Below are positions 64-12,417 of a stretch of DNA of 12,417 nt, one piece after another; position 1 is the stretch's first letter; each line of letters opens with the position of its first letter. The notes beneath the pieces are model-generated. The model was given only the letters and a program-made list of their open reading frames with translations. It ran no database searches and was not told the origin of the DNA. Origin of the DNA: Candidatus Pacearchaeota archaeon (lineage in GTDB: Archaea > Nanobdellota > Nanobdellia > Pacearchaeales > GW2011-AR1); assembly GCA_016234025.1 (NCBI GenBank), contig JACQLL010000091.1:1-12417 (forward strand). The letters are read 5' to 3'. The position numbers and the translations under genes were made by a program.

Positions 64-1155
64 ATGGAAAAGAGAGGCGAACTAACTTCGACGCAAATAA
101 TAACAATACTTCTGACAATTATTGGTTTCGTCGTAGTCGTAATCTTTCTCCTGACAATCCTTGATTTCAAAAACACATCATTGGACGAAGTATGCCGATT
201 GTCAATACTAACAAGAGCCACGACTCCGGACGCTCTGGAAAAATTCATTCCGCTAAACTGCGAAACGAAAAGATACTGTCTGACGACAACAGGAGAGGAC
301 TGCGTTCAGTTCATTGGAGAAAGCAACGTCGAGAAAGTAAAACTTCCTTCGGGAACTCTTGAAAACGGAAAAACAAAGGCTGCTCAAAAAATCGAAGAAA
401 TATCTGCCAACGCAATGTTCGACTGCTGGTCAATCACCGGAAAAGGAAGACTAGACATATCTTCGGGAGCGGTAAAAAATCCGACAAACATTTTAACAGA
501 CATATACTCTGTCGACGGCGCAAAACCAATCTGTCTCGTCTGTTCAAGAATCGCAATCGCAGATGACCTCGCAAAAAGAGAAGATATCTTAAAAGACGTT
601 AATGTGAACGACTACTTCGGAAAACAAAAAGTCCCCGGTTCTGATTTGACTTACCTTCAAACGCTAACAGACAAACAAATAAACTCGTATCCAGCCGCAT
701 TCACCCAAGAACTCGGTAAAAGCTCTCCAAAAACAACAAACGAAATCGCAATCATCTTCACACAGATAATCACCGACGACAAAGCTCCAATACTTCAGGC
801 AATAGAAAAAGGAACAAACACCGGAGTCTCGACAGCAGGAGGAATCTTGCTCGGACCGACGGGAGCTATCTCTCCGCTCAAGACCTTGGGACTTTCCGCC
901 ATCGCAGGAATCGTCTCATCGACGATTTCCGGAGGAATCGCATACGTTAAAGCAAAAGAAAACCAAGGCCTAGCAATAACGCATTGCGACAAGCTGACAA
1001 GTCCTGAAAAAGAAAGATACGGCTGTTCGGTCATCGCTCCTATTGATTACAATGAAGTCGAAACAATCAATCAGCTATGCTACAAAATCGAAGGAACCCC
1101 AAGCGCCGGCGGTTCATCTCTCGGCGCAGGCGGTGAATTCGGCGGAACGACATGA
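64..1155 (+). CDS. Membrane-anchored surface protein, first gene of the prepilin-like operon
   Basis: 363 aa of unrecognised family. The N-terminus is short and basic (MEKRGEL) followed by a hydrophobic helix at about residues 10-33, which resembles a class III prepilin signal or an uncleaved anchor; R4-G5 would be the possible processing site. The rest is predicted to be outside the cell and has ten Cys (44, 66, 72, 80, 121, 157, 160, 308, 321, 339), including a CLVC pair. A Gly/Ala/Ser-rich hydrophobic stretch at about 252-295 could be a second membrane-inserting segment. The tail after 344 is Gly/Ser-rich and looks disordered. The frame is open upstream to the window edge, but the TATA box at 35 supports the ATG at 64. 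The stop overlaps the next start as ATGA, so it is the operon's first gene. It is longer than its neighbours and lacks the KKAQ motif, so calling it a pilin would be unsafe. Confidence 0.75.
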   Translation: MEKRGELTSTQIITILLTIIGFVVVVIFLLTILDFKNTSLDEVCRLSILTRATTPDALEKFIPLNCETKRYCLTTTGEDCVQFIGESNVEKVKLPSGTLENGKTKAAQKIEEISANAMFDCWSITGKGRLDISSGAVKNPTNILTDIYSVDGAKPICLVCSRIAIADDLAKREDILKDVNVNDYFGKQKVPGSDLTYLQTLTDKQINSYPAAFTQELGKSSPKTTNEIAIIFTQIITDDKAPILQAIEKGTNTGVSTAGGILLGPTGAISPLKTLGLSAIAGIVSSTISGGIAYVKAKENQGLAITHCDKLTSPEKERYGCSVIAPIDYNEVETINQLCYKIEGTPSAGGSSLGAGGEFGGTT

Positions 1156-1682
1156 AATACAAACTTCCAATGAAAAATAAAAAAGCAAATATCCTCGAAG
1201 AAAATACTCTAAGCACGATAATCGCAGTAATCGGAATCCTCCTGATATTATTCGTAATTTACAAGGTCTACATAAAAATAAATGAGGACTCTGAAATAAA
1301 CAAAGCCCGCACATTCGTCCAAAGCTTATCAGAGAAAATTAACGCTGTAAAAATAAATTCCCAAGAAAACATAACTCTGACAGGATTCAGCGCAGAAAAA
1401 ACATGGTATATTCTCGCATTCGATAAAAACCAACTCGACAAACCGGACAAATGCCTCTTCGACAGCTGCGTCTGCGTCTGCCCTGGAGTTTCAACTGAAA
1501 CATGTCAAAAGCAAGGACTATGCGAATCAGTCGAAACAGAAAAAATCACAATAAAAACAACATACATACCAATTCCTCAGAATCTAATTAAGATGGAAGT
1601 AACTAAGACAGAAAAAGAAATAACATTATTTAGTCAATTTACTAAAATAGAAGTTGACGAGATTATAAAGAGAGTAGGATGA
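1152..1682 (+). CDS. Prepilin-like protein with Cys-rich cluster
   Basis: 176 aa. The N-terminus MKYKLPMKNKKANILEE fits a class III signal: basic leader, predicted cleavage after KKA (residue 12), and Glu at position 5 of the mature chain, as in type IV pilins. One hydrophobic helix spans about 20-38. The ectodomain contains a compact cluster of six Cys at 101, 106, 108, 110, 118 and 124 (C-x4-C-x-C-x-C-x7-C-x5-C), which could be disulfide-bonded or bind metal. Beyond the signal I do not recognise a family. The ATG overlaps the preceding stop (ATGA), which supports 1152; an internal ATG at 1170 would give the shorter MKNKKAN leader seen in the neighbours and is a fair alternative. It is probably processed by an A24 prepilin peptidase such as the one at 6372. 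Its own stop overlaps the next start. Confidence 0.8.
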   Translation: MKYKLPMKNKKANILEENTLSTIIAVIGILLILFVIYKVYIKINEDSEINKARTFVQSLSEKINAVKINSQENITLTGFSAEKTWYILAFDKNQLDKPDKCLFDSCVCVCPGVSTETCQKQGLCESVETEKITIKTTYIPIPQNLIKMEVTKTEKEITLFSQFTKIEVDEIIKRVG

Positions 1683-2104
1683 TGAACAAAAAAGCAGGCA
1701 CAGGCGAAACTTTGAAAGACAACTTGATTTATTTAATCCTGTTGGTAATATTTTTCATCATAATGTTTTTCTTCGTCTTAAGTAAAGCAAATAGCGCGTC
1801 GCTCTGGTCAGACTATTACGCAAAAGAATTAACCAAAGTCATAAACAACGCAAAGCCAAACGACGAAGTAACTCTCAACTTTCACAAAGCAACAGAAATC
1901 GCACAAAAAAATTCAGTTCCATCCATCAGCGAAATTTTTACATTCGACAACTCACAAAACAAACTCTGCGTGAAACTCTCGCCATCAAGACAAACATGTC
2001 GCTTTTACTTCAACAACGTAGACATAACCAGCCCGGAAATAAGAATAGACATCTCATCTGAAAAAAATCTCCTATCCTTCCAAATCAAAGAGAAAACAAA
2101 ATGA
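1679..2104 (+). CDS. Prepilin-like protein (short)
   Basis: 141 aa. It starts MMNKKAGTGE, with predicted prepilin-peptidase cleavage after KKA, then a very hydrophobic helix at about 14-36 rich in Phe, Ile and Leu. The ectodomain of about 100 residues has only two Cys (97 and 107), ten residues apart, which could close one disulfide loop, and ends in an alternating pattern consistent with beta strands. No known domain is recognised. The start overlaps the upstream stop (ATGATGA), so either ATG 1679 or ATG 1682 could be used; translation is probably coupled. Its length and single helix match a minor pilin or pseudopilin subunit. That role is inferred from the signal and the operon, not from homology. 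Confidence 0.78.
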   Translation: MMNKKAGTGETLKDNLIYLILLVIFFIIMFFFVLSKANSASLWSDYYAKELTKVINNAKPNDEVTLNFHKATEIAQKNSVPSISEIFTFDNSQNKLCVKLSPSRQTCRFYFNNVDITSPEIRIDISSEKNLLSFQIKEKTK

Positions 2105-2529
2105 AAAACAAAGCCCAAGCAGGAAACATAACAATGATAGTAGTATTCGTCGCAATACTGATGATAATCGCATCAGGGATAGTAATAGGCATCTCTGCCT
2201 TCTTCTCTTCAGAAGACGCTTTTAGAAAAACCGACGCCGAAGTTCTAAACACGAAAATAAAAAACTGCTTTATTGAAAATTCTGTTTCGGAAAAATTAGA
2301 CATATACGAACTCTGTTCGCTAAATGAAGAAGTAATAAAAAGAAATTACATAATCGAAATAAAACAAAACGGCGAAGCATTCTATAATTACGGCGACACT
2401 GAAAAATGCCTCCTCGGCGACGAGAATCAAGCATTTCCAATTTGCTCAACTTCAACTCTAAAAAAAGATGAAAAAACATTCACAATAACAACAGGAAGCA
2501 ATCAACTTTCAAAAATAGAACAAAAATGA
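2101..2529 (+). CDS. Prepilin-like protein (MKNKAQ type)
   Basis: 142 aa. The N-terminus MKNKAQAGN carries the KAQ processing motif common in DPANN pilin-like proteins, followed by a hydrophobic helix at about 10-35. The ectodomain has four Cys (56, 72, 103, 115), allowing two disulfides, and a basic, polar C-terminus. ATGA overlaps join it to the genes before and after. No Shine-Dalgarno motif precedes the start, so coupled re-initiation is likely. The family cannot be named from sequence alone; a minor pilin or pseudopilin role is inferred. Confidence 0.78.
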   Translation: MKNKAQAGNITMIVVFVAILMIIASGIVIGISAFFSSEDAFRKTDAEVLNTKIKNCFIENSVSEKLDIYELCSLNEEVIKRNYIIEIKQNGEAFYNYGDTEKCLLGDENQAFPICSTSTLKKDEKTFTITTGSNQLSKIEQK

Positions 2530-3059
2530 AAAACAAAAAAGCACAAACAGGAAAAATAATTGCATCTCTTGGGGTAATCGTGCCGGTGATTTTAATAATG
2601 ACTTTATTTGTCAGCGCCTCTCTCGCAATCTCTTCTTTCAAAAAGGAGAACCAAAGAGTGGAATCTCCAAAAAATCAGATTGACTCTCTTCTGTTAAAAA
2701 AAATAACTCTTGACATTGAAGAGCAAAAAGAATTCCTTATCCTCGACGCCTATGTGTTATTAGACAAGAAAAAAATAGAAAAAGAACAATTCCAAGAAGC
2801 TCTGAAAACTCTCGTCGATGAGAAAAATCCCTGCCTCGCTTTAGCAAAAGGAAACTCTCCGTCGCCTGCAGGACTGGCAGGAGCCGAAGCAAACGACGAC
2901 TTCGTCATAGAACTAAAAGAAGACGATCTCTACCTCGGAAACATCGGCACGACTCCTCTTTCTCTGATAAAATACAAGAAACTCTTGAGCCAGACGCAGG
3001 TAAAAACGACTGAAGATATTTTCATCGAAAGCTACATCGGAGAATGCCCAAATGAATAA
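2526..3059 (+). CDS. Prepilin-like protein (MKNKKAQ type)
   Basis: 177 aa. It begins MKNKKAQTGK, a clear class III signal with predicted cleavage between A6 and Q7, followed by a hydrophobic helix at about 11-36. Residues 40-100 are charged and mainly helical, which could extend the N-terminal helix as in type IV pilins. Two Cys remain, at 103 and 174. A Pro/Ala/Gly-rich linker at about 109-122 separates this region from a small C-terminal acidic beta-rich part. The start overlaps the preceding stop (ATGA), and the end overlaps the next gene by 8 nt. The overall design matches a pilin-type subunit, but no specific family was recognised. Confidence 0.78.
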   Translation: MKNKKAQTGKIIASLGVIVPVILIMTLFVSASLAISSFKKENQRVESPKNQIDSLLLKKITLDIEEQKEFLILDAYVLLDKKKIEKEQFQEALKTLVDEKNPCLALAKGNSPSPAGLAGAEANDDFVIELKEDDLYLGNIGTTPLSLIKYKKLLSQTQVKTTEDIFIESYIGECPNE

Positions 3060-3522
3060 AAAAGCCCAAGTCCCGGCTCTGTTCACAATTATAATAGCGA
3101 TAGCCCTCTCTGCATCGGCGCTATATATCATCGTAACATCCAACAATAACCGCTACTCAAACTTAATAGAAATAAACAACCTGATAGAACAAACGCAATT
3201 CAAGGAGTTATACATAAAAGAGCAGGCAAAAATAATCCTCAACGAAACGATTAATTTGTGTCAATCATGCACTGAAAAAAACTTAAAAGAATTGTTCAAA
3301 GAAAAGTCCATAGAAAGACAAAACCTCTTCCACTACGACGGTGCAGGAAACTTTTACGCAAACATCAAAGAAGACAACTTAGAAATCAAAGAAGAGGAGA
3401 ACTATAAGCTAAGCATTCCGGAAATAAAAATCGAATCAGAGATAAACCAAAACGAAATTCAGAAAAACTTCAATCTTTGCATTCTATTCGACAAACAAGG
3501 CGATTTTGTCGGATATTGCTGA
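3052..3522 (+). CDS. Prepilin-like protein (MNKKAQ type), last gene of first operon
   Basis: 156 aa. MNKKAQVPA is a textbook DPANN-style class III signal with predicted cleavage between A5 and Q6. The hydrophobic helix spans about 8-28 and is rich in Ala and Ile. The ectodomain is charged and mostly helical, with a CQSC pair at 70-73 and two more Cys at 143 and 156; the last Cys is the final residue of the protein, which is unusual and suggests a C-terminal disulfide. It overlaps the upstream gene by 8 nt in another frame. After its stop comes 0.5 kb without a gene, beginning with strong hairpins, so this is taken as the end of the operon. Confidence 0.78.
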   Translation: MNKKAQVPALFTIIIAIALSASALYIIVTSNNNRYSNLIEINNLIEQTQFKELYIKEQAKIILNETINLCQSCTEKNLKELFKEKSIERQNLFHYDGAGNFYANIKEDNLEIKEEENYKLSIPEIKIESEINQNEIQKNFNLCILFDKQGDFVGYC

Positions 3523-3550
3523 CTGCTAAACACATAAACTTTCGAGATTA

Positions 3551-3585
3551 TAGTAAACCAACTTAATTCTTCGGTTGGTTTACTA
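3551..3585 (+). repeat. Hairpin A1: perfect 12-bp inverted repeat, TAGT...ACTA
   Basis: TAGTAAACCAAC (3551-3562) and GTTGGTTTACTA (3574-3585) are perfect reverse complements around the 11-nt loop TTAATTCTTCG. It starts 28 nt after the operon's last stop, so it may sit in the 3' end of that mRNA. There is no T-tract after it, so it is not a canonical terminator. The arm and loop resemble those of the element at 12282-12370 (consensus TAGTNNACCAAY then TTAATYYTTCGG), so the two look like one repeat or RNA family. Confidence 0.8.
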
Positions 3586-3586
3586 G

Positions 3587-3631
3587 ACAGCGGAGCAACA
3601 AAAGAGCCGAAAGACTTTGTTGGTCTGCTGT
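3587..3631 (+). repeat. Hairpin A2: 16-bp near-perfect inverted repeat
   Basis: ACAGCGGAGCAACAAA (3587-3602) pairs with TTTGTTGGTCTGCTGT (3616-3631) across 16 positions, with one G-G mismatch and one G-T wobble, around a 13-nt loop. It begins one base after hairpin A1, so the two would stack as tandem stems if transcribed. Possible roles are a 3' end stabiliser, a processing site or part of a structured RNA; nothing distinguishes these here. Confidence 0.75.
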
Positions 3632-3773
3632 AGCCGCGGCGACTGGGATTTGTTCCGCCTGCCGTCGCCACGAGAGGATGGAAGAGGTGGTGGGCGGGGC
3701 CGAAGTTCCTCCAAAGCCGCCGCGCCGTCTACAAATCTCCGTCGCCGCGCCGTCTCCAAATCGGGCGCGGCTT
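3632..3773. other. GC-rich non-coding stretch
   Basis: In 3661-3780, 80 of 120 bases are G or C by hand count, far above the flanking genes. Short open frames exist on both strands (3617-3811 on +, 3583-3792 on -), but their products are low-complexity Arg/Ser/Ala/Pro strings without hydrophobic core or family resemblance, so I do not call them genes. Local pairings can be drawn, for example GGCGAC (3638-3643) with GTCGCC (3664-3669). The stretch could be a structured RNA or decayed repetitive DNA. Confidence 0.6.
3718..3762 (+). repeat. Two-copy direct repeat, 25-bp period
   Basis: CGCCGCGCCGTCTACAAATC at 3718-3737 recurs at 3743-3762 with a single A-to-C change (19 of 20 positions identical). 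The two copies are 25 bp apart, start to start, inside the GC-rich stretch. Confidence 0.8.
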
Positions 3774-3874
3774 CGAAATCCCGCAGCCGCAAGGTCGGCG
3801 GAGTAGATTAAAGCAGGCAGCGTTTATTCGTAGTCAATCTCACATTGCCACAAACTCTGCGGAGTAGATTAAAG
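3774..3874 (+). repeat. Imperfect duplicated block, copy 1
   Basis: This block of about 101 bp matches 3901-4004. It begins CGAAATCCCGCAGCCGCA, contains GTTTATTC and CATTGCC in the middle, and ends CTCTGCGGAGTAGATTAAAG. Internally it has two related sub-repeats ending in GGCGGAGTAGATTAAAG (to 3813) and TGCGGAGTAGATTAAAG (to 3874). Across both blocks, four sub-repeats end at 3813, 3874, 3939 and 4004, a period of 61-65 bp. Confidence 0.75.
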
Positions 3875-3900
3875 CCAGTGGGATTATTTCATAGAGAGTT

Positions 3901-4004
3901 CGAAATTCCGCAGCCGCAGAAACTGCTGCTAAATTTAAGTTGGCGAAGTTTATTCTATCCACCTCGCATTGCCGCAGCCGCAAACTCTGCGGAGTAAATT
4001 AAAG
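3901..4004 (+). repeat. Imperfect duplicated block, copy 2
   Basis: Second copy of the block at 3774, 26 bp after its end. It begins CGAAATTCCGCAGCCGCA and ends CTCTGCGGAGTAAATTAAAG. In the last sub-repeat CCGCAG (3972-3977) and CTGCGG (3987-3992) are complementary, so a short hairpin is possible; the third sub-repeat has its own GCAG/CTGC pairing, partly compensating for its sequence changes. The block ends 14 bp before the next TATA box, so it could also act as an upstream promoter region. Confidence 0.75.
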
Positions 4005-4017
4005 TCAAAGAAAAACA

Positions 4018-4025
4018 TTTATAAA
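4018..4025 (+). promoter_or_regulatory. TATA box for the second prepilin-like operon
   Basis: TTTATAAA begins 29 nt before the ATG at 4047, the same spacing as elsewhere in the window, and is preceded by the A-rich AGAAAAACA, which could be the BRE. It fixes the start of the next gene at 4047 rather than the in-frame ATG at 3969, which lies upstream of the promoter and inside the repeat block. Confidence 0.8.
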
Positions 4026-4046
4026 CAATGTTTGATATTGATTAAA

Positions 4047-4502
4047 ATGAAAAAGAGAATGAATAAAAAGGCTCAAGACCTCTCAATCGGAACACTCATC
4101 CTCATCGTCCTCGGAATAATAGTTCTCGTTCTTTTAATTTTAGGATTCTCTCTCGGCTGGAGCAACCTCTGGGAAAAAATAAACATCTTCGGCGGCTCAA
4201 GCTCAATCAGCGACATCGTAACCGCCTGCAATCTTGCAGTCACCGCAAACTCGAAATTCTCATACTGCCAGGACTTTAAAGAAATAAAACTCGACGGCGA
4301 AACGCAATATCTAAACTGCCAGGACTCGAGAGTCCAACCAAACCTTGACTCTTCGGTAAACTGCGACGTTGAAGGTCTGACAGACGCAAAAGATATTGCT
4401 GAATGGCAATGCTTAAAACTTCAGCAACAAAATAAGCTGAAAGCAAATACAAAAGTAAACGGCTTTACTTGCACAAGCGAATTTAACATAGACCTTGAAT
4501 AA
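4047..4502 (+). CDS. Prepilin-like protein (MNKKAQDLSIG type)
   Basis: 151 aa. MKKRMNKKAQDL contains the KKAQ motif, with predicted cleavage between A9 and Q10, followed by a long Leu/Ile/Val helix at about 15-35 and then GWSNLW. The ectodomain has six Cys (61, 74, 91, 106, 122, 142). The pattern A-C-x-L-A-x5-K-x2-Y-C-x5-I is shared with the next gene product, so the two are paralogues. The start rests on the leaderless promoter at 4018; ATG 4059 (MNKKAQ) is an alternative. The next ATG follows 4 nt after the stop. I take it as a structural pilin or pseudopilin; the assembly machinery is not in view. Confidence 0.82.
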   Translation: MKKRMNKKAQDLSIGTLILIVLGIIVLVLLILGFSLGWSNLWEKINIFGGSSSISDIVTACNLAVTANSKFSYCQDFKEIKLDGETQYLNCQDSRVQPNLDSSVNCDVEGLTDAKDIAEWQCLKLQQQNKLKANTKVNGFTCTSEFNIDLE

Positions 4503-4506
4503 GCCC

Positions 4507-5187
4507 ATGAACAAAAAAGCATTCGACTTGTCAATCTCGACGCTCGTGATTATCGTCTTGGGAATTTTAGTTCTCATCGGAGTTTCATATATGCTAACAA
4601 AGGGTTTCAAAAATCTAAACTCTTCAACAGAACCTTTCCTCGACACAACACAAACAAGCGCAATCAAACAGGCATGCTCGCTCGCCTGCTCAAACGAAGA
4701 CAAGCTGACTTACTGCTGTAAAGAATATGAAATAGACGATAAAAAAATTCAATGCGGCGATGAAAGATTGGGAGTGGGTTGTGGTTTGAGGTGCGAAAGA
4801 TTTTCTTGCTATAATAACCAGTCCTTTGATGAGATAGCAATAGGAACATATCCACATCCTAATTCGGTTCAATTAACTTCTGCTCTTGTAAATCACTATG
4901 GAGAAAAAATAGGTAGATGGGCAGATGGAAATTGTTTAATGATAACGATAGATAATGAAGTTATTGTGCGTAATTACGGGAATGCAGGGGGTTGCGATTC
5001 TGTTGGATGGAGTGTAACATTGGAACCAATCTTAGAACAAATTATCGAAGATAGCTCATGCAACTTAGATGAATTGGATTCAAAAATTAAAAATCTTTAT
5101 TATTCTACAACTGAAGAACAATTTTCACAAAATTTTGATTGTTTAGGTACAATTGAATTTTTTGAAGTCGGTTGGGGTCCAGAATAA
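4507..5187 (+). CDS. Prepilin-like protein, chimeric, 12 Cys
   Basis: 226 aa. MNKKAFDLSIS is a class III signal in which Phe replaces the usual Gln after the predicted cleavage site; the helix spans about 11-30. Residues 56-71 share the A-C-x-L-A...K-x2-Y-C motif with the preceding paralogue. There are 12 Cys (57, 61, 70, 71, 83, 92, 96, 101, 143, 163, 185, 212). From about residue 79 the codon usage changes sharply: Asp is GAC in 4 of 5 codons before and GAT in 9 of 9 after; Phe is TTC in 3 of 3 before and TTT in 6 of 6 after. The C-terminal two thirds are therefore probably of different origin. A TTG at 4495 would add four residues (MNKP) and overlap the upstream stop, but ATG 4507 gives the family-typical N-terminus. 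Confidence 0.82.
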   Translation: MNKKAFDLSISTLVIIVLGILVLIGVSYMLTKGFKNLNSSTEPFLDTTQTSAIKQACSLACSNEDKLTYCCKEYEIDDKKIQCGDERLGVGCGLRCERFSCYNNQSFDEIAIGTYPHPNSVQLTSALVNHYGEKIGRWADGNCLMITIDNEVIVRNYGNAGGCDSVGWSVTLEPILEQIIEDSSCNLDELDSKIKNLYYSTTEEQFSQNFDCLGTIEFFEVGWGPE

Positions 5188-5188
5188 A

Positions 5189-5317
5189 ATGTCCCACGAC
5201 GACCCAACTCAAAGAAGAAAGACAAAACGCGACAAAAAAGCTAAAAGAAGATATAAAATTTACAAAAAAGGAGGCTCGCACCGGACAATGAAAATCAAAT
5301 TGAAAAACGAAAACTAA
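5189..5317 (+). CDS. Small basic protein, 42 aa, unknown
   Basis: It starts MSHDDPTQRRKTKRDKKAKR and ends KIKLKNEN. It is strongly basic, with a Lys/Arg-rich middle, a GGSHR turn, no Cys and no hydrophobic segment, so it is probably cytoplasmic and could bind nucleic acid. The ATG is one base after the preceding stop, and the frame exactly fills the gap to the convergent gene, sharing the tetranucleotide CTAA (5314-5317) with that gene's stop. The peptidase/protease pair at 7208-7211 shares CTAA in the same way. This placement is the main support for a real gene. No family is recognised. Confidence 0.55.
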   Translation: MSHDDPTQRRKTKRDKKAKRRYKIYKKGGSHRTMKIKLKNEN

Positions 5318-6321
5318 TTTCTGCTCTTAACCACTTCTTCCAAAATCTCCAAAGTGTAAGCCAAGACCAAAGGACCGATAATAAAACCAAAAATTCCAAA
5401 AATAGAAATTCCTCCAAAGATTCCAAGTAACATAACAAAAGGATTTATCTTCGACTTGTCTCCCAAAATTTTCGCTTTCAAAACAGAATCAATCAAGACA
5501 CTCAAAGCCAATCCAACAACCAAAACTCCTCCTGCAGTAAAATAATTCTTCACAACAAGATTATAAATCAAAAGAGGAATCCAAACTACCGCCGGACCTA
5601 GAGCAGGAATAAAGGCAAAAAAGAAAATAAGCAAAGACAAAAGTAAAAACGAATCAATTCCAAGAAAATAAAAACCAAGTGAGCCGACGATAAACTCTAT
5701 AAAAGCAATAAACAAAGTTCCGTAAACCAAAACATTCGTTATTCTGGAAATGTCCCTGCTAACCTCTTCCTTATCCTTGAAAGGAATGAAATCTTTCAAA
5801 CGAACGGCGAGGCCATCCCAATGAACAAGAATATAATACATTCCAAACAAGCTGATTAAAACAGAAATCAAAAAAGAAGGAGCCCGATAAACCGCAGAAG
5901 TTAAAAAAGAAACAAAAATAGAATCCTTCCCTGAAAAATCTTCCGGACTAATATCAAACTTATCAAGCAGAGGATAAGACGAAATTTTCCCGAGGATATT
6001 CTCGAAATTTCCTCCGCTCAAATAAACTTGCGCCTGCTGCAAAGCACTTCCCAAGACCAAAGCAATGGGCAAAATAAGAATTAATAAAACCACAAATATA
6101 GAAATCAAGGCAGCACCAAATTTACCAAAAGGTTTCTGAATTCTAATGAACAAAGGTCTTACCAAATAAGCAAGAATAAAAGCAGAAATCAAAGCAATCA
6201 AATAATTTTTCAAAATCAAATAAGACAAAATTACCAAAACAATAACAACAGCCCAGAAGAAATATTTCTCATAATCTCCCTCGTATCCAATCTCTCTCTT
6301 TCTAAAACTTTTCCCAAACAT
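5314..6321 (-). CDS. AI-2E family transporter (PerM-like membrane protein)
   Basis: 335 aa, usual length for the family. It has a hydrophilic N-terminus, two helices at about 20-54, another at 70-95, a soluble segment at about 98-140, and a C-terminal membrane bundle from 146 on. Family hallmarks are the AYLVRPL end of the second helix (51-57), FIPALGPAVVWIP (237-249) and the Gly-rich region INPFVMLLGIFGGISIFG (293-310) running into IGPL (315-318). The family is annotated as AI-2 exporters in some bacteria, and some members act as Na+/H+ antiporters; the substrate here is unknown. The start at 6321 is supported by a TATA box 29 nt upstream, shared with the divergent peptidase gene. No direct link to the pilin genes is seen except this shared promoter. 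Confidence 0.9.
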   Translation of the reverse strand: MFGKSFRKREIGYEGDYEKYFFWAVVIVLVILSYLILKNYLIALISAFILAYLVRPLFIRIQKPFGKFGAALISIFVVLLILILPIALVLGSALQQAQVYLSGGNFENILGKISSYPLLDKFDISPEDFSGKDSIFVSFLTSAVYRAPSFLISVLISLFGMYYILVHWDGLAVRLKDFIPFKDKEEVSRDISRITNVLVYGTLFIAFIEFIVGSLGFYFLGIDSFLLLSLLIFFFAFIPALGPAVVWIPLLIYNLVVKNYFTAGGVLVVGLALSVLIDSVLKAKILGDKSKINPFVMLLGIFGGISIFGIFGFIIGPLVLAYTLEILEEVVKSRN

Positions 6322-6342
6322 AAAACTAAAAAAATAAGAAGC

Positions 6343-6350
6343 TTAATAAA
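6343..6350. promoter_or_regulatory. Shared, symmetrical bidirectional TATA box
   Basis: TTAATAAA on the + strand reads TTTATTAA on the - strand. Its upstream edge is 29 nt from the + strand ATG at 6372 and 29 nt from the - strand ATG at 6321. It is flanked by AAGAAG (6336-6341) and CTTCTT (6352-6357), a perfect inverted repeat that gives each direction the same purine-rich BRE-like sequence. Start codons, inverted repeat and TATA box all share one centre at 6346.5. One TBP site could therefore direct leaderless transcription both ways. Confidence 0.7.
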
Positions 6351-6371
6351 ACTTCTTGTCTTAACAAAATA

Positions 6372-7211
6372 ATGAACGAACATTATTTCCTCTTCGCCAT
6401 CGCGCTTCTCTGGACTCTCTTCGCAACAATCCAAGACATCAAACATCGCGAAGTCGCAAACTGGCTGAACTTCTCGCTTCTTGCATTTGCTTTGTCTTAT
6501 CGCGCTTTCTACTCAATCTCAACAAAACAATATCAATTCTTTCTCGTCGGAATTCTCGGCTTCGGAGTTTTCTTCATAATCGCAAATATACTTTACTACT
6601 CAAACGTCTTCGCAGGCGGCGACGCAAAACTCCTGATGTCCTACGGCGCAATCATTCCCTTCACATCATACATCTCTGTTCCGATTATAGCTCTGTTCTT
6701 CACGCTTCTCCTCCTGACAATCGGCGCCGGCTACAGCATCGTTTACAGCGTCGGAATAATCTCGAAAAATAAAAAGAAATTCCTGAAAGAACTGGAAACA
6801 AAAATCAAAAAAAACAAAACTCTCCTGACTCTCTCCTTAATCGTTTTTTTAATTTCAATAATACTAACAACCAAAAGCAAAATATTCGTCCCGCTTGCAC
6901 TAACCTCTATAATACCTGCGATTTATCTCTACTCGTCTTCTCTGGAAAAATGTATGATTAAACTCTACCCTCCTTCAAAGTTAACAGAAGGCGACTGGCT
7001 GGAAAAAGACGTGAAAATCGGAAGAACAACAATCAAAAAAACAGTTCACGGCTTGACAAAAAAAGACATCGCATTCCTAAAAAAGCACCGCCGCTCCGTC
7101 TTCGTCAAAGAAGGAATTCCTTTCACTCCTGCATTCCTGATTTCTTTAATAGTCACGATAATTTTGTTTTTGAAATTCCCTGACTTTAGTTTTTTCTTGT
7201 TGAGGTTCTAA
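6372..7211 (+). CDS. Archaeal prepilin peptidase (A24 family, FlaK/PibD-like)
   Basis: 279 aa polytopic membrane aspartic protease. The first catalytic Asp is D22 in QDIKHREVANWLN; the second is D84 in AGGDAKLL, the GxGD-type motif. The C-terminal part carries the archaeal A24 signature: EGDWL (206-210), HGLTKKDI (226-233) and KEGIPFTPAF (246-255), followed by a last helix. About six to seven membrane segments are visible, with a basic cytoplasmic stretch at 131-149. In this family the enzyme cuts class III signals before the hydrophobic helix, which fits the KKAQ/KKA motifs of the seven genes at 1152-3522 and 4047-5187. It shares its promoter with the AI-2E gene and ends in a CTAA overlap with the convergent protease gene. 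FlaK and PibD cannot be told apart without homologues. Confidence 0.92.
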   Translation: MNEHYFLFAIALLWTLFATIQDIKHREVANWLNFSLLAFALSYRAFYSISTKQYQFFLVGILGFGVFFIIANILYYSNVFAGGDAKLLMSYGAIIPFTSYISVPIIALFFTLLLLTIGAGYSIVYSVGIISKNKKKFLKELETKIKKNKTLLTLSLIVFLISIILTTKSKIFVPLALTSIIPAIYLYSSSLEKCMIKLYPPSKLTEGDWLEKDVKIGRTTIKKTVHGLTKKDIAFLKKHRRSVFVKEGIPFTPAFLISLIVTIILFLKFPDFSFFLLRF

Positions 7212-10200
7212 GTTTCGTAGGTAACAATCAATTTCGGTCGCTTCTCGGAATCAGGATCATTCACGCCGTACATATCCAATGCGTCTCCGCCACCAACTGG
7301 TTCAATGTTAAGGATATCATTGCCGGTACGCAAACACAACATTGTCCAGTCATTTAGTTTAATGAAAGAAATTCCAGTATTGTCAAGAATAAACTCATTT
7401 CTCTCATCCACAATTATATCATCCATATCAAATTGACCTCCAGTCTCTGAATTATTTAGAAATCCACATCTCTGATAGTCAGAATTTGTTAATGACATTG
7501 GGTCTAATTGCGTTGACTCTAATAACACGATGTAGTCCTCGCTATCACCATCATCCGATCTAATATACCATGGATATCCAGACAGCTTCGCCTCAATAAT
7601 ATTTCCAGATATAGACAATGTGTCAAATGAAAAAAAGCTTCTATAGTTATAATACTTATTTCCACCAATATGAGACGCTACACGTGGAGTTCCAAATATA
7701 TTGCCATTTGGAGAATCTCTGACGTACTGCCATGTATCTGCTTGGCCAAGAAATAAAGAATCATCTAAAGAAGCTTCAATTATCGCCGTGCATGTTCCGT
7801 CTCCGTTGTCGATGTGATTTACTGGGCAATTAGATTCTGTTTCTTCGCTAGTATAAAGGCCCGTAAGTTGTTTGTCATGATGGAATCTTGGCCATTCTTG
7901 GTTTTCCTCAACATATGGACTGTCAGTTTCCCAAATATAAATTGAGCCACGATTTTTATATTTTTGTTCCACAAAGTCGAATTCATTGTTTGAACTTGTT
8001 ATGATTTCGACTAAATTATCTTGGTCTAAATCAAATAATACTGGAGCAGAACTTGCGCCAGTTTCAGATATTTTAGGATACCCTTCTAAGAGGTTGCCGT
8101 TCACATCAAAAGCATAAACCCTACGATTACTTTCAGTAGATAAACCTATCCCCCCATTATTAATACTTCCAAATGAACTATGAAATTTATGCGATCCAGG
8201 ATAATTAACATAAACAGGCCAACCATTTAAAATATTTCCCTGTTTATTAAAAAGATAAATTTTTCCAAATCCATTAGCAGCAATTTCTAAATCATCATTT
8301 TCATCAATATCGACTAACGATACACTTAAGAGAAAACTGCCCATTTCTACGGGCCAGCCAGTTAAATATTGCCCATTTTTGTTAAGAACATGCACGCCAC
8401 CATAATTAGTATCAAAGGTTCCTTGGTAGTATAATGCAAAAATAATGTCATCGTTTCCATCATTATCAACATCTCCCACAACAGGCGAATTAACTGGTAA
8501 TCCTGGAACATCTATAGGCCAACCATTGACCAGAGTTCCATCCTTGTTATAAACATAAACTCTTCCTTCATTAACAAATTCTTGTTGTTGCTCATCATAG
8601 CCTCCGTTAATAATGGTAGCAACAACAATCTCTAAATCACCGTCCATATCAAAATTTCCAACTGCAGGCGTAGAAAAATATTCCCAGGAAGTGGCGTAAT
8701 AATTATATTGGCCTAAACTCATGCTTGAAAGAACAACTCCCTCTTGACTAATAATACAAAGTTTGTTTTCTCCATTAAATGCATTATTATTTTTTAATAT
8801 TATTTCAGTTTGACCATCTTTGTCTAAATCTGCAGCCATCACATTTGAAAAATAACTTGTTCCACACTCTTCAATCTGCGAATTAAATAAAATAGAACCA
8901 TCGCCATTAAAGGAGTAAAGATAAAGTTTCGCATTTTCAACTAGAGGAGGGAAGATTATCTCATCGTATTCATCGTCATCTAAATTAACAAGAACGAGAT
9001 CCTGATAGTTTTTTGCTGCATCTTCTAGTGCAACCACAATACTTTGCAGGAGATTACCTTCTTGATCGTAAATAAGGACTTTTTGCTGATTGCCCATAAA
9101 AGGAACAACAACCTCCTCATTATCGTCTCCTAATACATTACCTATTGTCGTCTGGAGATAGCCTGGCCAAATGAGATATCCATCTTGACCGGAATCAAAA
9201 TTAAGTCTTACTGGCCAACTCTCTTTTAACGTTGTATCAACATTAATTTTCTCTACCTCAACAGTATCTCGGATTCCATTAAGTAGTTCAACATAAGCAA
9301 TAATTAATAGCGTGCCATCTTCTGTTAAAGTATTTGCCAACAATCTTGCTTCAAGAACATTTTGATTGTCTATAACTATCCCATTATTTGTTGGTGGTCC
9401 GTCATTAAAAGAATATTCCACATAAAAATTATCAATAGGGTAATTGAATATATTTTCAAGTCTAATTCTTAAATCATTTTTTGGATTTATAGTATCATAA
9501 TTAAGCGGTTCTATAAACTTAAATTTATTAAATTTGAAATAACCATAATCATCATAGTGATTATTATTTTCATCATGAACTCTTAATCTTATAATACTTG
9601 GGCTTGATAGGGTAAGCGAGTCTAAGTTCTCATACAAAACGCCATTTGCAGGAATAGAACCAGAACTTGTTATTAAAGTCCAATCATCTTCATCTAGTTC
9701 AGATAAAGGTAAATCAGGAGCATGAGACAATTCATAGTATTCAAAGTTATTTCCCTCTATTTTTCCAGTTATGTCAATTTCCAAAGAATCTTGTTCAATG
9801 GCATCCAAAGCAACGATTATCGGCTCTTCAGAAAACACAGAGTTCATTGCATCAACAACGCCAAAACCTTGAGTAGTAACTTTTTCTCCATTCGGCAACA
9901 ACTCAGCAGTATTTTTTATAATTGTTTTAATCTGCTCTGAAGTATAACTTGGATTCTTTTGTTTTATCAAAGCCGCTAATCCAGAAACATGTGGAGCAGC
10001 CATACTTGTTCCAGAGATAGCAATGTGTCCTTCAAGTTCAGGACTACATTCTTCTCCGCCCTCAAGCCAATTATCCCATTGTGCTGCACAAATCTCTAAC
10101 CCTGGAGCAACAATATCTGGTTTAATTATCGCCTCCCTGATTTCATTTTCATCTTTCCAAACAACGGGACCTCTTGAACTGAAGTAAGCCATTTCTAAAT

Positions 10201-11548
10201 TCTTGTCAACGGCTCCAACAGTAATTGCTCGTCTTGCTGTTCCGGGACTCAATATTGTTTCTTTGTATGGCCCAGAATTTCCAGCAGAAATGACAGCAAC
10301 AACTCCAAGGTCAACAACATTATCTATAGCTAAAGATACATCATCATCGGGATCTCCACCGCCTCCTAAACTCATACTAATCACATCCAAGTGATCTAAA
10401 AAATCTCCGTCCTGGTTCGGGTCAGCGCTTCTCTCGATGGCTGCGATAATGTCGCTATCCGATCCGCTGCCATATGAACTTAAAACCTTATAACCAACGA
10501 TACTCGCATCAGGTGCAACACCTTTCAAGACTCCGTTTCCAGCAGCAGTAGCAGCAACATGAGTGCCATGCCCATAATCATCCATGGGGTCTCTGTCAAC
10601 AATGTCTTCAGGATCATTATAATCCCCATCTCCATTGACATCCTGGCTATTTACAAAATCAAATCCATCAATGACTTTATCACAATTTCCATTCAAAAAT
10701 TGCTGTGTTGTACAACTTCCTAAATCTTCATGAGTATAATCAACTCCTGTATCAATTATTCCAATTGTAATTCCTCTTCCCGTTAAGCACAAAGCACCCC
10801 CTCCAGTGTACGCCTTTGTATAATCTATCTCATCTCCAGAAAAAACTAAACAAGCTTCAACCTCCTTCGTTGCTGCTCCTGTTAGTCCATTGCCCCCGAC
10901 ATTTTCACATTCATTTCCACCAGGCCTACAATATTCCCAGACATCATCTGCGTTTATCAAAGGAACAGAATCCATCAAAGTTGCGTAAACTTTGTAATTA
11001 GGACTTACTTTATAACCTTCGCTCTTTAATCTTTCAACATCTTCTTTCTTTAGTTCATTAACAACAACCGCATTAATAACCTTAGTAAATCTATTCTTTA
11101 TTTTAACATCGGAATTAATCTGCAATAATTTTCTCTTGGTGTTATCCTGCTCTTTTGTAATCTTAGTCTTCTGCTTGTTTAATTTTTCTTGTAGGTTTGT
11201 AGAGAGTTTATTTTTTTTGTAAGTAACAACTAAAGGTTCTTCATTCAATCTGATTATATAGCCGTCATATTTTTGTTGTTCTAATTCTTGAGAAAAAACA
11301 ATATCGTTTCTCAACAACAAAGGATTAAAATTCTGATTACCATAAGGAAAAATGTCATCCCTTTGTCCTTCTTCTAAAAATTCAAGATATGCGTAATTAA
11401 AAAAATTGTTAATCTGTTTTTCGTCTAATCTTCTTTCTTCTATTGTCGGAGCAAACCTCAACTCTTTATCAAAAACAAAAAACTCCAATGCTGAAAAAAC
11501 CAACACAAAAGAAACAATTAATAAAACTCCTACAACTCCTTTTTTCAT
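7208..11548 (-). CDS. Large secreted subtilisin-like (S8) protease with FG-GAP propeller and DNRLRE-like domain
   Basis: 1446 aa. Residues 1-26 are a signal peptide or N-terminal anchor; about 95-195 resembles an inhibitor I9-type propeptide. The catalytic triad is D266 (IIDTGVD), H327 (YGHGTH) and S515 (SGTSMAAPH), with N424 (AGNSGP) as the oxyanion residue, so it should be active. An Asp-rich loop at 303-324 may bind calcium. After a beta-rich region at about 570-770 there are six clear FG-GAP/VCBS-like Asp repeats (starting 854, 906, 964, 1025, 1079, 1172) and two degenerate ones (803, about 1127), which suggests a 7- or 8-bladed propeller. Residues 1240-1446, from NGDGTC to RPKLIVTYE, match DNRLRE-type domains of surface proteins. 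No C-terminal anchor is seen. Codon use is GAT-rich, unlike the GAC-rich flanking genes. Likely a protein-degrading or adhesive surface enzyme. Confidence 0.92.
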   Translation of the reverse strand: MKKGVVGVLLIVSFVLVFSALEFFVFDKELRFAPTIEERRLDEKQINNFFNYAYLEFLEEGQRDDIFPYGNQNFNPLLLRNDIVFSQELEQQKYDGYIIRLNEEPLVVTYKKNKLSTNLQEKLNKQKTKITKEQDNTKRKLLQINSDVKIKNRFTKVINAVVVNELKKEDVERLKSEGYKVSPNYKVYATLMDSVPLINADDVWEYCRPGGNECENVGGNGLTGAATKEVEACLVFSGDEIDYTKAYTGGGALCLTGRGITIGIIDTGVDYTHEDLGSCTTQQFLNGNCDKVIDGFDFVNSQDVNGDGDYNDPEDIVDRDPMDDYGHGTHVAATAAGNGVLKGVAPDASIVGYKVLSSYGSGSDSDIIAAIERSADPNQDGDFLDHLDVISMSLGGGGDPDDDVSLAIDNVVDLGVVAVISAGNSGPYKETILSPGTARRAITVGAVDKNLEMAYFSSRGPVVWKDENEIREAIIKPDIVAPGLEICAAQWDNWLEGGEECSPELEGHIAISGTSMAAPHVSGLAALIKQKNPSYTSEQIKTIIKNTAELLPNGEKVTTQGFGVVDAMNSVFSEEPIIVALDAIEQDSLEIDITGKIEGNNFEYYELSHAPDLPLSELDEDDWTLITSSGSIPANGVLYENLDSLTLSSPSIIRLRVHDENNNHYDDYGYFKFNKFKFIEPLNYDTINPKNDLRIRLENIFNYPIDNFYVEYSFNDGPPTNNGIVIDNQNVLEARLLANTLTEDGTLLIIAYVELLNGIRDTVEVEKINVDTTLKESWPVRLNFDSGQDGYLIWPGYLQTTIGNVLGDDNEEVVVPFMGNQQKVLIYDQEGNLLQSIVVALEDAAKNYQDLVLVNLDDDEYDEIIFPPLVENAKLYLYSFNGDGSILFNSQIEECGTSYFSNVMAADLDKDGQTEIILKNNNAFNGENKLCIISQEGVVLSSMSLGQYNYYATSWEYFSTPAVGNFDMDGDLEIVVATIINGGYDEQQQEFVNEGRVYVYNKDGTLVNGWPIDVPGLPVNSPVVGDVDNDGNDDIIFALYYQGTFDTNYGGVHVLNKNGQYLTGWPVEMGSFLLSVSLVDIDENDDLEIAANGFGKIYLFNKQGNILNGWPVYVNYPGSHKFHSSFGSINNGGIGLSTESNRRVYAFDVNGNLLEGYPKISETGASSAPVLFDLDQDNLVEIITSSNNEFDFVEQKYKNRGSIYIWETDSPYVEENQEWPRFHHDKQLTGLYTSEETESNCPVNHIDNGDGTCTAIIEASLDDSLFLGQADTWQYVRDSPNGNIFGTPRVASHIGGNKYYNYRSFFSFDTLSISGNIIEAKLSGYPWYIRSDDGDSEDYIVLLESTQLDPMSLTNSDYQRCGFLNNSETGGQFDMDDIIVDERNEFILDNTGISFIKLNDWTMLCLRTGNDILNIEPVGGGDALDMYGVNDPDSEKRPKLIVTYET

Positions 11549-11569
11549 TCTTTATTAAAACACTGGGGC

Positions 11570-11577
11570 TATATAAA
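11570..11577 (-). promoter_or_regulatory. TATA box for the S8 protease gene
   Basis: On the minus strand TTTATATA begins at 11577, 29 nt before the A of the ATG at 11548, preceded by GGAAATT as a possible BRE. It lies in the 41-bp gap after the HIT-like gene, so the protease has its own promoter although the two genes point the same way. Confidence 0.65.
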
Positions 11578-11589
11578 AATTTCCATAAA

Positions 11590-12222
11590 TCAGGCCACTC
11601 TTCTCCGCAACTTCAAGACTTTTTCTTCCCTCTGCGGTTTCTTTATCCTGATAACCTCCGGCTTCTTAACAACTCTTAACAACTTGTAAACCTCTTCCAT
11701 TTCCTCCTCGCTCGCGTCATATCTCGGAGAATTAACGCTCAACGGCTTGTCATAAACCGGAATCACGTTCACTATCGCCTCGCCGAAAGAACTCTCTGTC
11801 TGTATCTCGCACGAACTCGCCTTCAGCTTCAAAGAAATCTTCCCCGCAATCTTCTTTGCAAAACTAAAAGCAGAACCCGGCAGAAACTTACTGTCTCCAA
11901 TCGCCTTCTTTGGAATTAGAATAATATGCCCCTTTGAAATTGCTTTTTTCGAAATAATCGCAATAACCTCTTTGTTCTCATCTATTTTCTTACTCGGTAT
12001 ATCGCCGTCGACAAGCATTCTAAAAATTCCTTTCTGGCTCTGCGTCTCGCCACGCCGTTGAAAACCCTGCCCTCTTTGCTGCTCAATCATCGCGGCAATC
12101 GCCTCGTCAGTCATCGAATTCAACTGCTCCTGTGCCTGCTCTCTCTGTCCCTCCGGAAGCCGATTAATCTGCGCCTGCAACTGCTTTCTTCCCTCGAGGA
12201 TTTCTTCACTGCTAACAACCAT
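11590..12222 (-). CDS. HIT-fold protein lacking the histidine triad, with N-terminal helical extension
   Basis: 210 aa from ATG 12222; an in-frame ATG at 12228 would add MV. I prefer 12222 because a TATA box lies exactly 29 nt upstream. Residues about 5-50 are a Gln/Glu-rich helical extension, probably coiled coil. About 66-160 follow the HIT pattern: IFRMLVDGDIPSKKI, then KGHIILIPKKA, then GEAIVNVIPVYD. In active HIT hydrolases the last segment reads HxHxH before IIPR; here those positions are Glu, Ile and Asn, so catalysis is not expected. The C-terminus after about 178 is very basic, which suggests nucleic acid or ribosome binding. HIT enzymes hydrolyse nucleotide phosphoramidates and related compounds; this one may have kept only ligand binding. 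The assignment rests on motif alignment by eye. Confidence 0.75.
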   Translation of the reverse strand: MVVSSEEILEGRKQLQAQINRLPEGQREQAQEQLNSMTDEAIAAMIEQQRGQGFQRRGETQSQKGIFRMLVDGDIPSKKIDENKEVIAIISKKAISKGHIILIPKKAIGDSKFLPGSAFSFAKKIAGKISLKLKASSCEIQTESSFGEAIVNVIPVYDKPLSVNSPRYDASEEEMEEVYKLLRVVKKPEVIRIKKPQREEKVLKLRRRVA

Positions 12223-12243
12223 CACCATAATAAAAAAACGACT

Positions 12244-12251
12244 TTTATATA
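12244..12251. promoter_or_regulatory. TATA box of the HIT-like gene, possibly bidirectional
   Basis: TATATAAA on the minus strand (from 12251) is 29 nt from the ATG at 12222. On the + strand the same octamer reads TTTATATA and predicts transcription from 12273, which is again an ATG, but that frame is only ATG AAA ATA TAG. A + strand transcript would start just before the structured element at 12282. The minus direction is well supported; the plus direction is inferred from symmetry. Confidence 0.55.
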
Positions 12252-12281
12252 ATTATTGAATCTTCTTTTCCCATGAAAATA

Positions 12282-12370
12282 TAGTCCACCAATTTAATCT
12301 TTCGGTTTTCTGAAGCTTCGTGAGAAGCGAAGATTAGAGAACTTCGTTCTCTTTATTTATTGGTGGACTA
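12282..12370 (+). ncRNA. Candidate structured RNA element B1 (three-way junction)
   Basis: TAGTCCACCAAT (12282-12293) and ATTGGTGGACTA (12359-12370) are perfect 12-bp complements. Inside, TAATCTTTCG (12295-12304) pairs with CGAAGATTA (12328-12336) with one bulged T; within it an alternative GCTTC-GTGA-GAAGC hairpin (12315-12328) has a GNRA loop on the + strand. A further hairpin, AGAGAAC-TTC-GTTCTCT, spans 12336-12352. Together these make a closed three-way junction. Arm and loop match hairpin A1 at 3551. It may be a free RNA, a leader of a gene beyond the edge, or a palindromic mobile repeat; transcription is not shown. Confidence 0.4.
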
Positions 12371-12417
12371 CGTCAAGAACCCTCAAAGATTTCGGGTTCT
12401 TGAGCGCATCCAAGAAT
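12357..12417. other. Unresolved open frames running off the right edge
   Basis: On the minus strand a frame ends with ...LKNPKSLRVLDVVHQ and a TAA stop at 12357-12359 (19 codons visible). On the plus strand a frame with possible TTG 12360 or GTG 12363 starts reads VDYVKNPQRFRVLERIQE to the edge. Both look protein-like and resemble each other because hairpin B2 is palindromic. At most one is likely to be a gene, and the visible part cannot decide it. Confidence 0.3.
12373..12403 (+). repeat. Hairpin B2: 10-bp inverted repeat at the window edge
   Basis: TCAAGAACCC (12373-12382) and GGGTTCTTGA (12394-12403) are perfect complements around an 11-nt loop. It starts two bases after element B1, repeating the tandem arrangement of A1 and A2 at 3551-3631. 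Confidence 0.7.

Follow-up and report, generated by a model that had tools for sequence, protein, structure and literature searches.

Twin-hairpin repeats in a Pacearchaeota genome are probably MITE-like elements inserted at TA sites

Gene content and hairpin loci of the window

The window, a stretch of 12,417 nt, was contig C63 of a Candidatus Pacearchaeota archaeon assembly (663,516 bp in 97 contigs, 75% complete); the genomes analysed here were draft assemblies. It carried a run of short ORFs (64-5187), several of which showed, by eye, KKAQ-like residues at the N-terminus ahead of a hydrophobic stretch, an arrangement that we take to be that of archaeal pilin-type proteins; two of these ORFs gave no Pfam match. 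The run was followed by ORFs for an AI-2E family transporter (5314-6321), a leader peptidase (Peptidase_A24, 6372-7211), a 1446-aa subtilase (Peptidase_S8) with FG-GAP-like repeats (7208-11548), and a HIT-domain protein (11590-12228). Two hairpin-forming loci had the following features:

3549..3632, + strand: complete twin-hairpin element of 84 nt, with TATAG on the left, CTGTA on the right and TA at both ends
3551..3585, + strand: hairpin 1 of the first copy, with arms 3551-3562 and 3574-3585 and an 11-nt loop
3587..3631, + strand: hairpin 2 of the first copy, in inverted orientation, from the predicted fold of 3549-3632
12280..12417, + strand: long-form element truncated by the contig end, its left part and module as in the copies at L009 and L013
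12282..12370, + strand: hairpin 1 of the second copy, with arms 12282-12293 and 12359-12370 and a loop insert with further branches
12373..12403, + strand: first interior hairpin of the long form, with 10-bp arms 12373-12382 and 12394-12403
12410..12417, + strand: start of the 5' arm of the second interior hairpin, truncated by the contig end, from comparison with L009 and L013

A sequence-only reading of the window had described a perfect 12-bp inverted repeat with an adjoining second hairpin at 3551 and again at 12282, and a repeat search recovered both. The arms matched over 12 nt at 100% in each copy; the 11-nt loop given for the first was borne out, and in the second the arms lay 65 nt apart, around an insert that folded into further branches. 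The true repeat unit begins two bases before the arm described in that reading, with TATAG, and complete units end in TA. Folded as RNA, 3549-3632 formed two hairpins at -36 kcal/mol (z -6.46) and 12280-12405 two hairpins at -50.6 kcal/mol (z -6.75), with 0 of 200 shuffles equally stable in either case. The R1 covariance model scored 87.2 bits at 3549..3632, an element that is itself among the 12 source sequences of the model, and 28.3 bits across 12280-12372 of the second copy.

Copy number and distribution

The claim of a repeat family, made from two copies, proved correct on a genome-wide scale. TTAATYYTTCGG had 56 matches (25 + 31) compared with 0 for the reversed pattern, ruling out a chance two-copy repeat; two of the matches, C24:4376 and C75:5163, fell outside the repeat. 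The shorter signature TATAGTNNACCAA, allowing at most one mismatch, was found at 180 sites compared with 12 for its reversed-pattern control. Counting two TATAG ends per element, the 180 minus 12 sites give an estimated density of about one element per 8 kb of the 664-kb assembly. A contig end lay within 200 bp of 38 of 54 copies, against an expected share of 5.9%, and this clustering suggests that the repeats break the assembly, which would also account for the window stopping within one.

A covariance-model search, as the earlier reading had proposed, was run with the 12-sequence model and matched the family in 19 genomes. These included 12 of the 138 genomes of the window's family, and 14 of 378 genomes of the class had matches, with G189, G249, G316, G322 and G358 belonging to four other families. 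Presence was patchy, as three of the seven genomes of the genus matched, the window's included. Per-genome copy numbers from the family and class scans are lower bounds, since stricter filters were applied and at most 31 or 11 candidates per genome were scored, and a 'negative' genome is one with no match under these filters; G015 counts as negative although its locus L138 contains a match to the model. Because the model was built from 10 sequences of the window's genome and two of G127, a genome of the same family, distant members were undercounted. In a pattern scan of named genomes, Candidatus Pacearchaeota archaeon RIFCSPHIGHO2_01_FULL_33_47 alone gave matches, at two loci, and two exact patterns, which could miss divergent copies, had 0 matches in viral contigs. 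G112 and G127, genomes of different genera, shared a 73-nt subtype (L108, L083:6350-6422) that was almost the same in both except in the loop, and similar elements of this type occurred in G083 and G023 (also L095 and L067). From sequence likeness, the near-identity of this subtype across genera suggests horizontal spread.

Element anatomy and paired ends

From left to right, the core of the element comprises TA, then a hairpin TAG...CTA and, past a short linker, a second, inverted hairpin ending CTA-TA. Complete copies were dispersed and 83-342 nt long, without a transposase gene, for which they are too short; short forms measured 83-95 nt in the window's genome and 72 nt to about 110 nt in relatives. 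In a 131-nt form the hairpin 1 loop contains an insert, and a 200-nt form (L009, L013), which starts as the 12280 copy does, has in addition two more hairpins between the core hairpins. In L009 and L013 the module continues into a third hairpin and then into the usual right end ...GGTTCACTATA, so that GC-rich repeats running on beyond 12417, as predicted by the sequence-only reading, found no support. The copy at L039 reached 342 nt, with a predicted fold made up almost entirely of hairpins; L010 and L015 held single-hairpin versions, and the copy at L026 lacked the inner hairpin arms, so copies can exist without them. A module related to the hairpin at 12373..12403 was present in the same-genus genome G128 (L085, L086). 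A four-hairpin long form was seen there (L085:1023-1173, L086), and its interior hairpins were related to those of the window copy.

To describe the ends we used 78 hand-picked matches (58 from relatives and 20 from the window's genome, one strand each), chosen from 130 and 98 listed matches and leaving aside partial matches, single-hairpin versions and most long forms; of the 78, 75 were unique. TA stood at both ends in 68 of the 75, and the inverted terminal repeat TATAG at the left end in 60 and at the right end in 54. Within one element, the 26-bp ends on the left and on the right were more alike than ends from other genomes: at positions 6-26, likeness was 0.62 compared with 0.52, and 0 of 2000 permutations were as high (15 representatives). 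The stems themselves were free to vary while keeping their pairing. Among 88 elements of 19 genomes, the 24 stems whose likeness was below 67% paired at a mean of 9.7 of 12 positions, compared with 7.2 (maximum 7.9 in 500 trials) when partners were shuffled among elements; the test kept 88 of 97 elements, and three of the 24 stems paired poorly (6-7 of 12). Together, end likeness and stem pairing point to two constraints acting jointly, in that the ends match each other, as those used by a transposase do, and each end is palindromic. Palindromic ends could be kept by selection for the hairpin, as single-stranded DNA or as RNA, or by correction of one arm from the other during replication.

Insertion at TA sites

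The element inserts at TA and leaves TA on both sides. This target duplication was seen from empty and filled sites in two settings, a second repeat (the D repeat) and a deaminase gene. The D repeat was empty at L054, and also at L045, where its loop differed slightly; it was filled at L027, at TTAAA^TA, and at L037, where another element occupied the preceding TA, and both junctions were seen. The left junction alone of the L027 type recurred in eight more copies (L017, L018, L019, L021, L035, L036, L048 and L050), which need not be separate events because the compound may have been copied. Elements thus nest in other repeats. The D repeat (L045, L027, L054; L069:1790-1880) is a second repeat family, TATAGCAACTGAC..., and a landing site for many A-type copies; its right hairpin resembles that of an element in G020, and its TATAGCAACTGACTTAA resembles, by eye, the IS630 end TATAGATAACTGACTTAA.

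At L014 a copy splits a deoxycytidylate deaminase gene. With the element and one TA taken out, the frame was restored and matched Pfam PF00383, and it was collinear and gap-free at the junction with all eight aligned homologues (of 1,831 found). In G029 (L065/L133), an older copy sits inside a Y1 transposase gene; the junction there was not clean, as keeping one TA fails to restore the frame of the family. Elements lay mostly between genes: an ORF of at least 100 aa crossed the joined flanks (450 nt each side) of 12 of 85 elements compared with 471 of 655 random points, and the 12 are an upper limit because several of these frames look unlike real proteins. The element at L012:629-711, which is of the 3549 type, keeps a reading frame open and may add an amino-acid stretch to a protein. 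Among 66 unique sites, with both sides pooled, related copies included and TA itself only two bases long, the target preference was symmetric: A was preferred at -3 (57% compared with a background of 33%, p 1e-8) and G avoided at -1 (2% compared with 11%).

The earlier reading had offered structured RNAs as an alternative to a repeat family, and of the two the repeat family stood. A structured-RNA family, or a set of transcript-end hairpins, that spread secondarily would account for the stable folds (z -6.0 to -6.8 for four sequences of the window's genome and -4.2 for a relative), for the 73 of 85 elements that interrupt no ORF of at least 100 aa, and for the compensatory stem changes that the reading had said to look for and that were indeed found, with eight of 23 pairs changed on both sides in the 12-sequence alignment. 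However, paired arms are expected of transposon ends too, many elements matched the covariance model on both strands, and one copy splits the deaminase gene. Rfam gave 0 matches in the window at the gathering threshold and, in four other loci, one weak match that lay outside the element, which rules out a known Rfam RNA. We therefore regard an RNA family as very improbable. The duplicated TA, the split gene and the symmetry of the two strands favour mobile DNA.

Candidate enzymes

We consider that both loci are probably non-autonomous, MITE-like elements moved in trans, with a transposase of the IS630/Tc1-mariner type as the probable mover. The transposase, acting in trans and most likely an IS630/Tc1-mariner enzyme (DDE, TA target), would recognise the outer ~26 bp of each end as terminal inverted repeats, cut the ends and paste the element into a TA. 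Longer copies carry their additional hairpins within the hairpin 1 loop and in the stretch between hairpins 1 and 2. The duplicated TA, together with the likeness of the two ends and the preferred target bases, makes such an enzyme the best guess. Within the family, the DDE_3 domain was found in five of 12 element-positive compared with three of 126 element-negative genomes (Fisher p 1e-4); it exceeded the cut-off in one of seven further positives, making six of 19 positives in all. Profile searches found no DDE_3 match in the window's genome, G112, G127, G128 or G316. Three IS630-type genes in G020 and G023 were flanked by TATAG ends about 1.1 kb apart, and these copies were rejected as direct parents since their ends share TATAG with the element and then differ. 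No autonomous copy, sought as convergent ends 0.8-3 kb apart, was found among the first 100 of the 180 sites in the window's 75%-complete assembly, nor was one found near single ends in G316. A palindrome is not needed by plain IS630 ends, and this counts against the IS630 reading.

Inverted hairpin pairs with a fixed short foot sequence and free stems recall REP dimers, as far as the available text of PMC3733652 describes them. Under a REPIN-like origin, a Y1 (HUH) transposase of the IS200/RAYT kind would recognise the pair in single-stranded form, and TATAG would belong to the stretch of guide sequence adjoining the hairpin foot. Y1_Tnp was indeed found in 16 of 19 positive compared with 13 of 35 negative genomes (Fisher p 0.0014), G189 matching only below the cut-off and the 35 negatives being compared without matching for genome size or completeness. 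This association is real as well. Yet Y1_Tnp had no match in G316, G026 and G134, all element-positive. RAYT genes are often flanked by their own REPs, according to the available part of PMC6006769; here an element lay within 1.5 kb at three of 30 Y1 loci, at one of them inside the gene, and none had an element on each side. The ends also read TATAG and not the foot guide of REP/RAYT systems, GTAG (or GTGG). We regard this reading as quite unlikely. The positive genomes tend to be larger, which may raise the count of any transposase and so both the DDE_3 and the Y1 associations.

G316, with at least seven copies and neither a DDE_3 nor a Y1_Tnp match, would suit a different enzyme, for instance a serine recombinase acting on circles or another transposase family, that joins DNA at a TA core; a 2-bp core would likewise leave TA on both sides. 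The G316 assembly is 96% complete, and a divergent or lost enzyme could also explain the missing matches; we hold such a recombinase to be distinctly improbable. Also unlikely, in our view, is a mobile superfamily found in five or more families of a single archaeal class, with ends recognised more by hairpin shape than by sequence, moved by an enzyme neither IS630-type nor Y1 and growing by hairpin uptake.

Comparison with known elements

We class the elements as MITE-like and not under a named IS family because the MITE features tested were present, although searches found no autonomous partner, whereas two REP/RAYT tests and the test for IS630 ends failed. The Correia elements or NEMIS of Neisseria are, in the available text of PMC2229807, small and non-coding, with TA termini, target duplication and a long paired structure, and occur in a short and a longer form an internal stretch of ~50 bp apart. 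The elements described here share small non-coding size, TA termini, target duplication, base pairing and short and longer forms, and differ, on a comparison of descriptions, in their archaeal host, their two separate variable-stem hairpins and their extra-hairpin forms. RUP of Streptococcus pneumoniae, for which the same text gives IS630-Spn1 as proposed mover and a known partner with similar ends, is likewise about 100 bp, uses TA targets and inserts into a transposase gene (here one Y1 gene); unlike for RUP, no partner with similar ends was found here. ISY100 (IS630/Tc1-mariner) duplicates its TA targets, and its 24-bp imperfect terminal repeats are a likely minimal requirement in the portion available of PMC2170065. 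The TA target with TA duplication and the terminal repeats are common to both, and unlike ISY100, which carries its transposase gene, the elements here have no gene and have subterminal palindromes.

In form, the likeness is to REP dimers and REPINs, which in the accessible sections of PMC3733652 and PMC6006769 also show paired inverted palindromes, heterodimers of different stems, stem-loop spacers and mostly intergenic positions; the elements differ from REPINs in TATAG ends set inside TA sites, where those have GTAG or CGTC tags, and in showing no flanking Y1 pattern. The TATAGGA...TCCTATA palindromes that enclose REP dimers in Anabaena variabilis, in the excerpt of PMC3733652, are likewise long with TATAG ends, and, compared by description only, differ in being cyanobacterial and in having one consensus. 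By analogy, the Pacearchaeota element appears to work like Correia/NEMIS and RUP and to look like a REP heterodimer. It stands apart from the known kinds by its twin palindromic ends, by the accretion of hairpins and by its host, a DPANN archaeon.

Ultra-small DPANN archaea are regarded as streamlined, and dense mobile repeats in a 664-kb assembly, with most TTAATYYTTCGG copies at contig ends, contrast with that view. In the open-licence literature we found no paper on miniature inverted-repeat elements in DPANN archaea, and nothing by title on mobile elements for Pacearchaeota MITEs; the list of archaeal MITE hosts in a review names, in its available part, no DPANN groups and adds 'several other archaeal genomes'. 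The system provides both empty and filled sites together with a simple target rule, and it allows terminal-hairpin selection to be tested in a TA-targeting transposon.

GC-rich block

The block at 3633-4010 of the window is GC-rich with internal repeats in an AT-rich genome. In a search of 146 kb of the genome it matched itself and one other place, L035 on contig C60, and was about 81% alike to L035:227-349.
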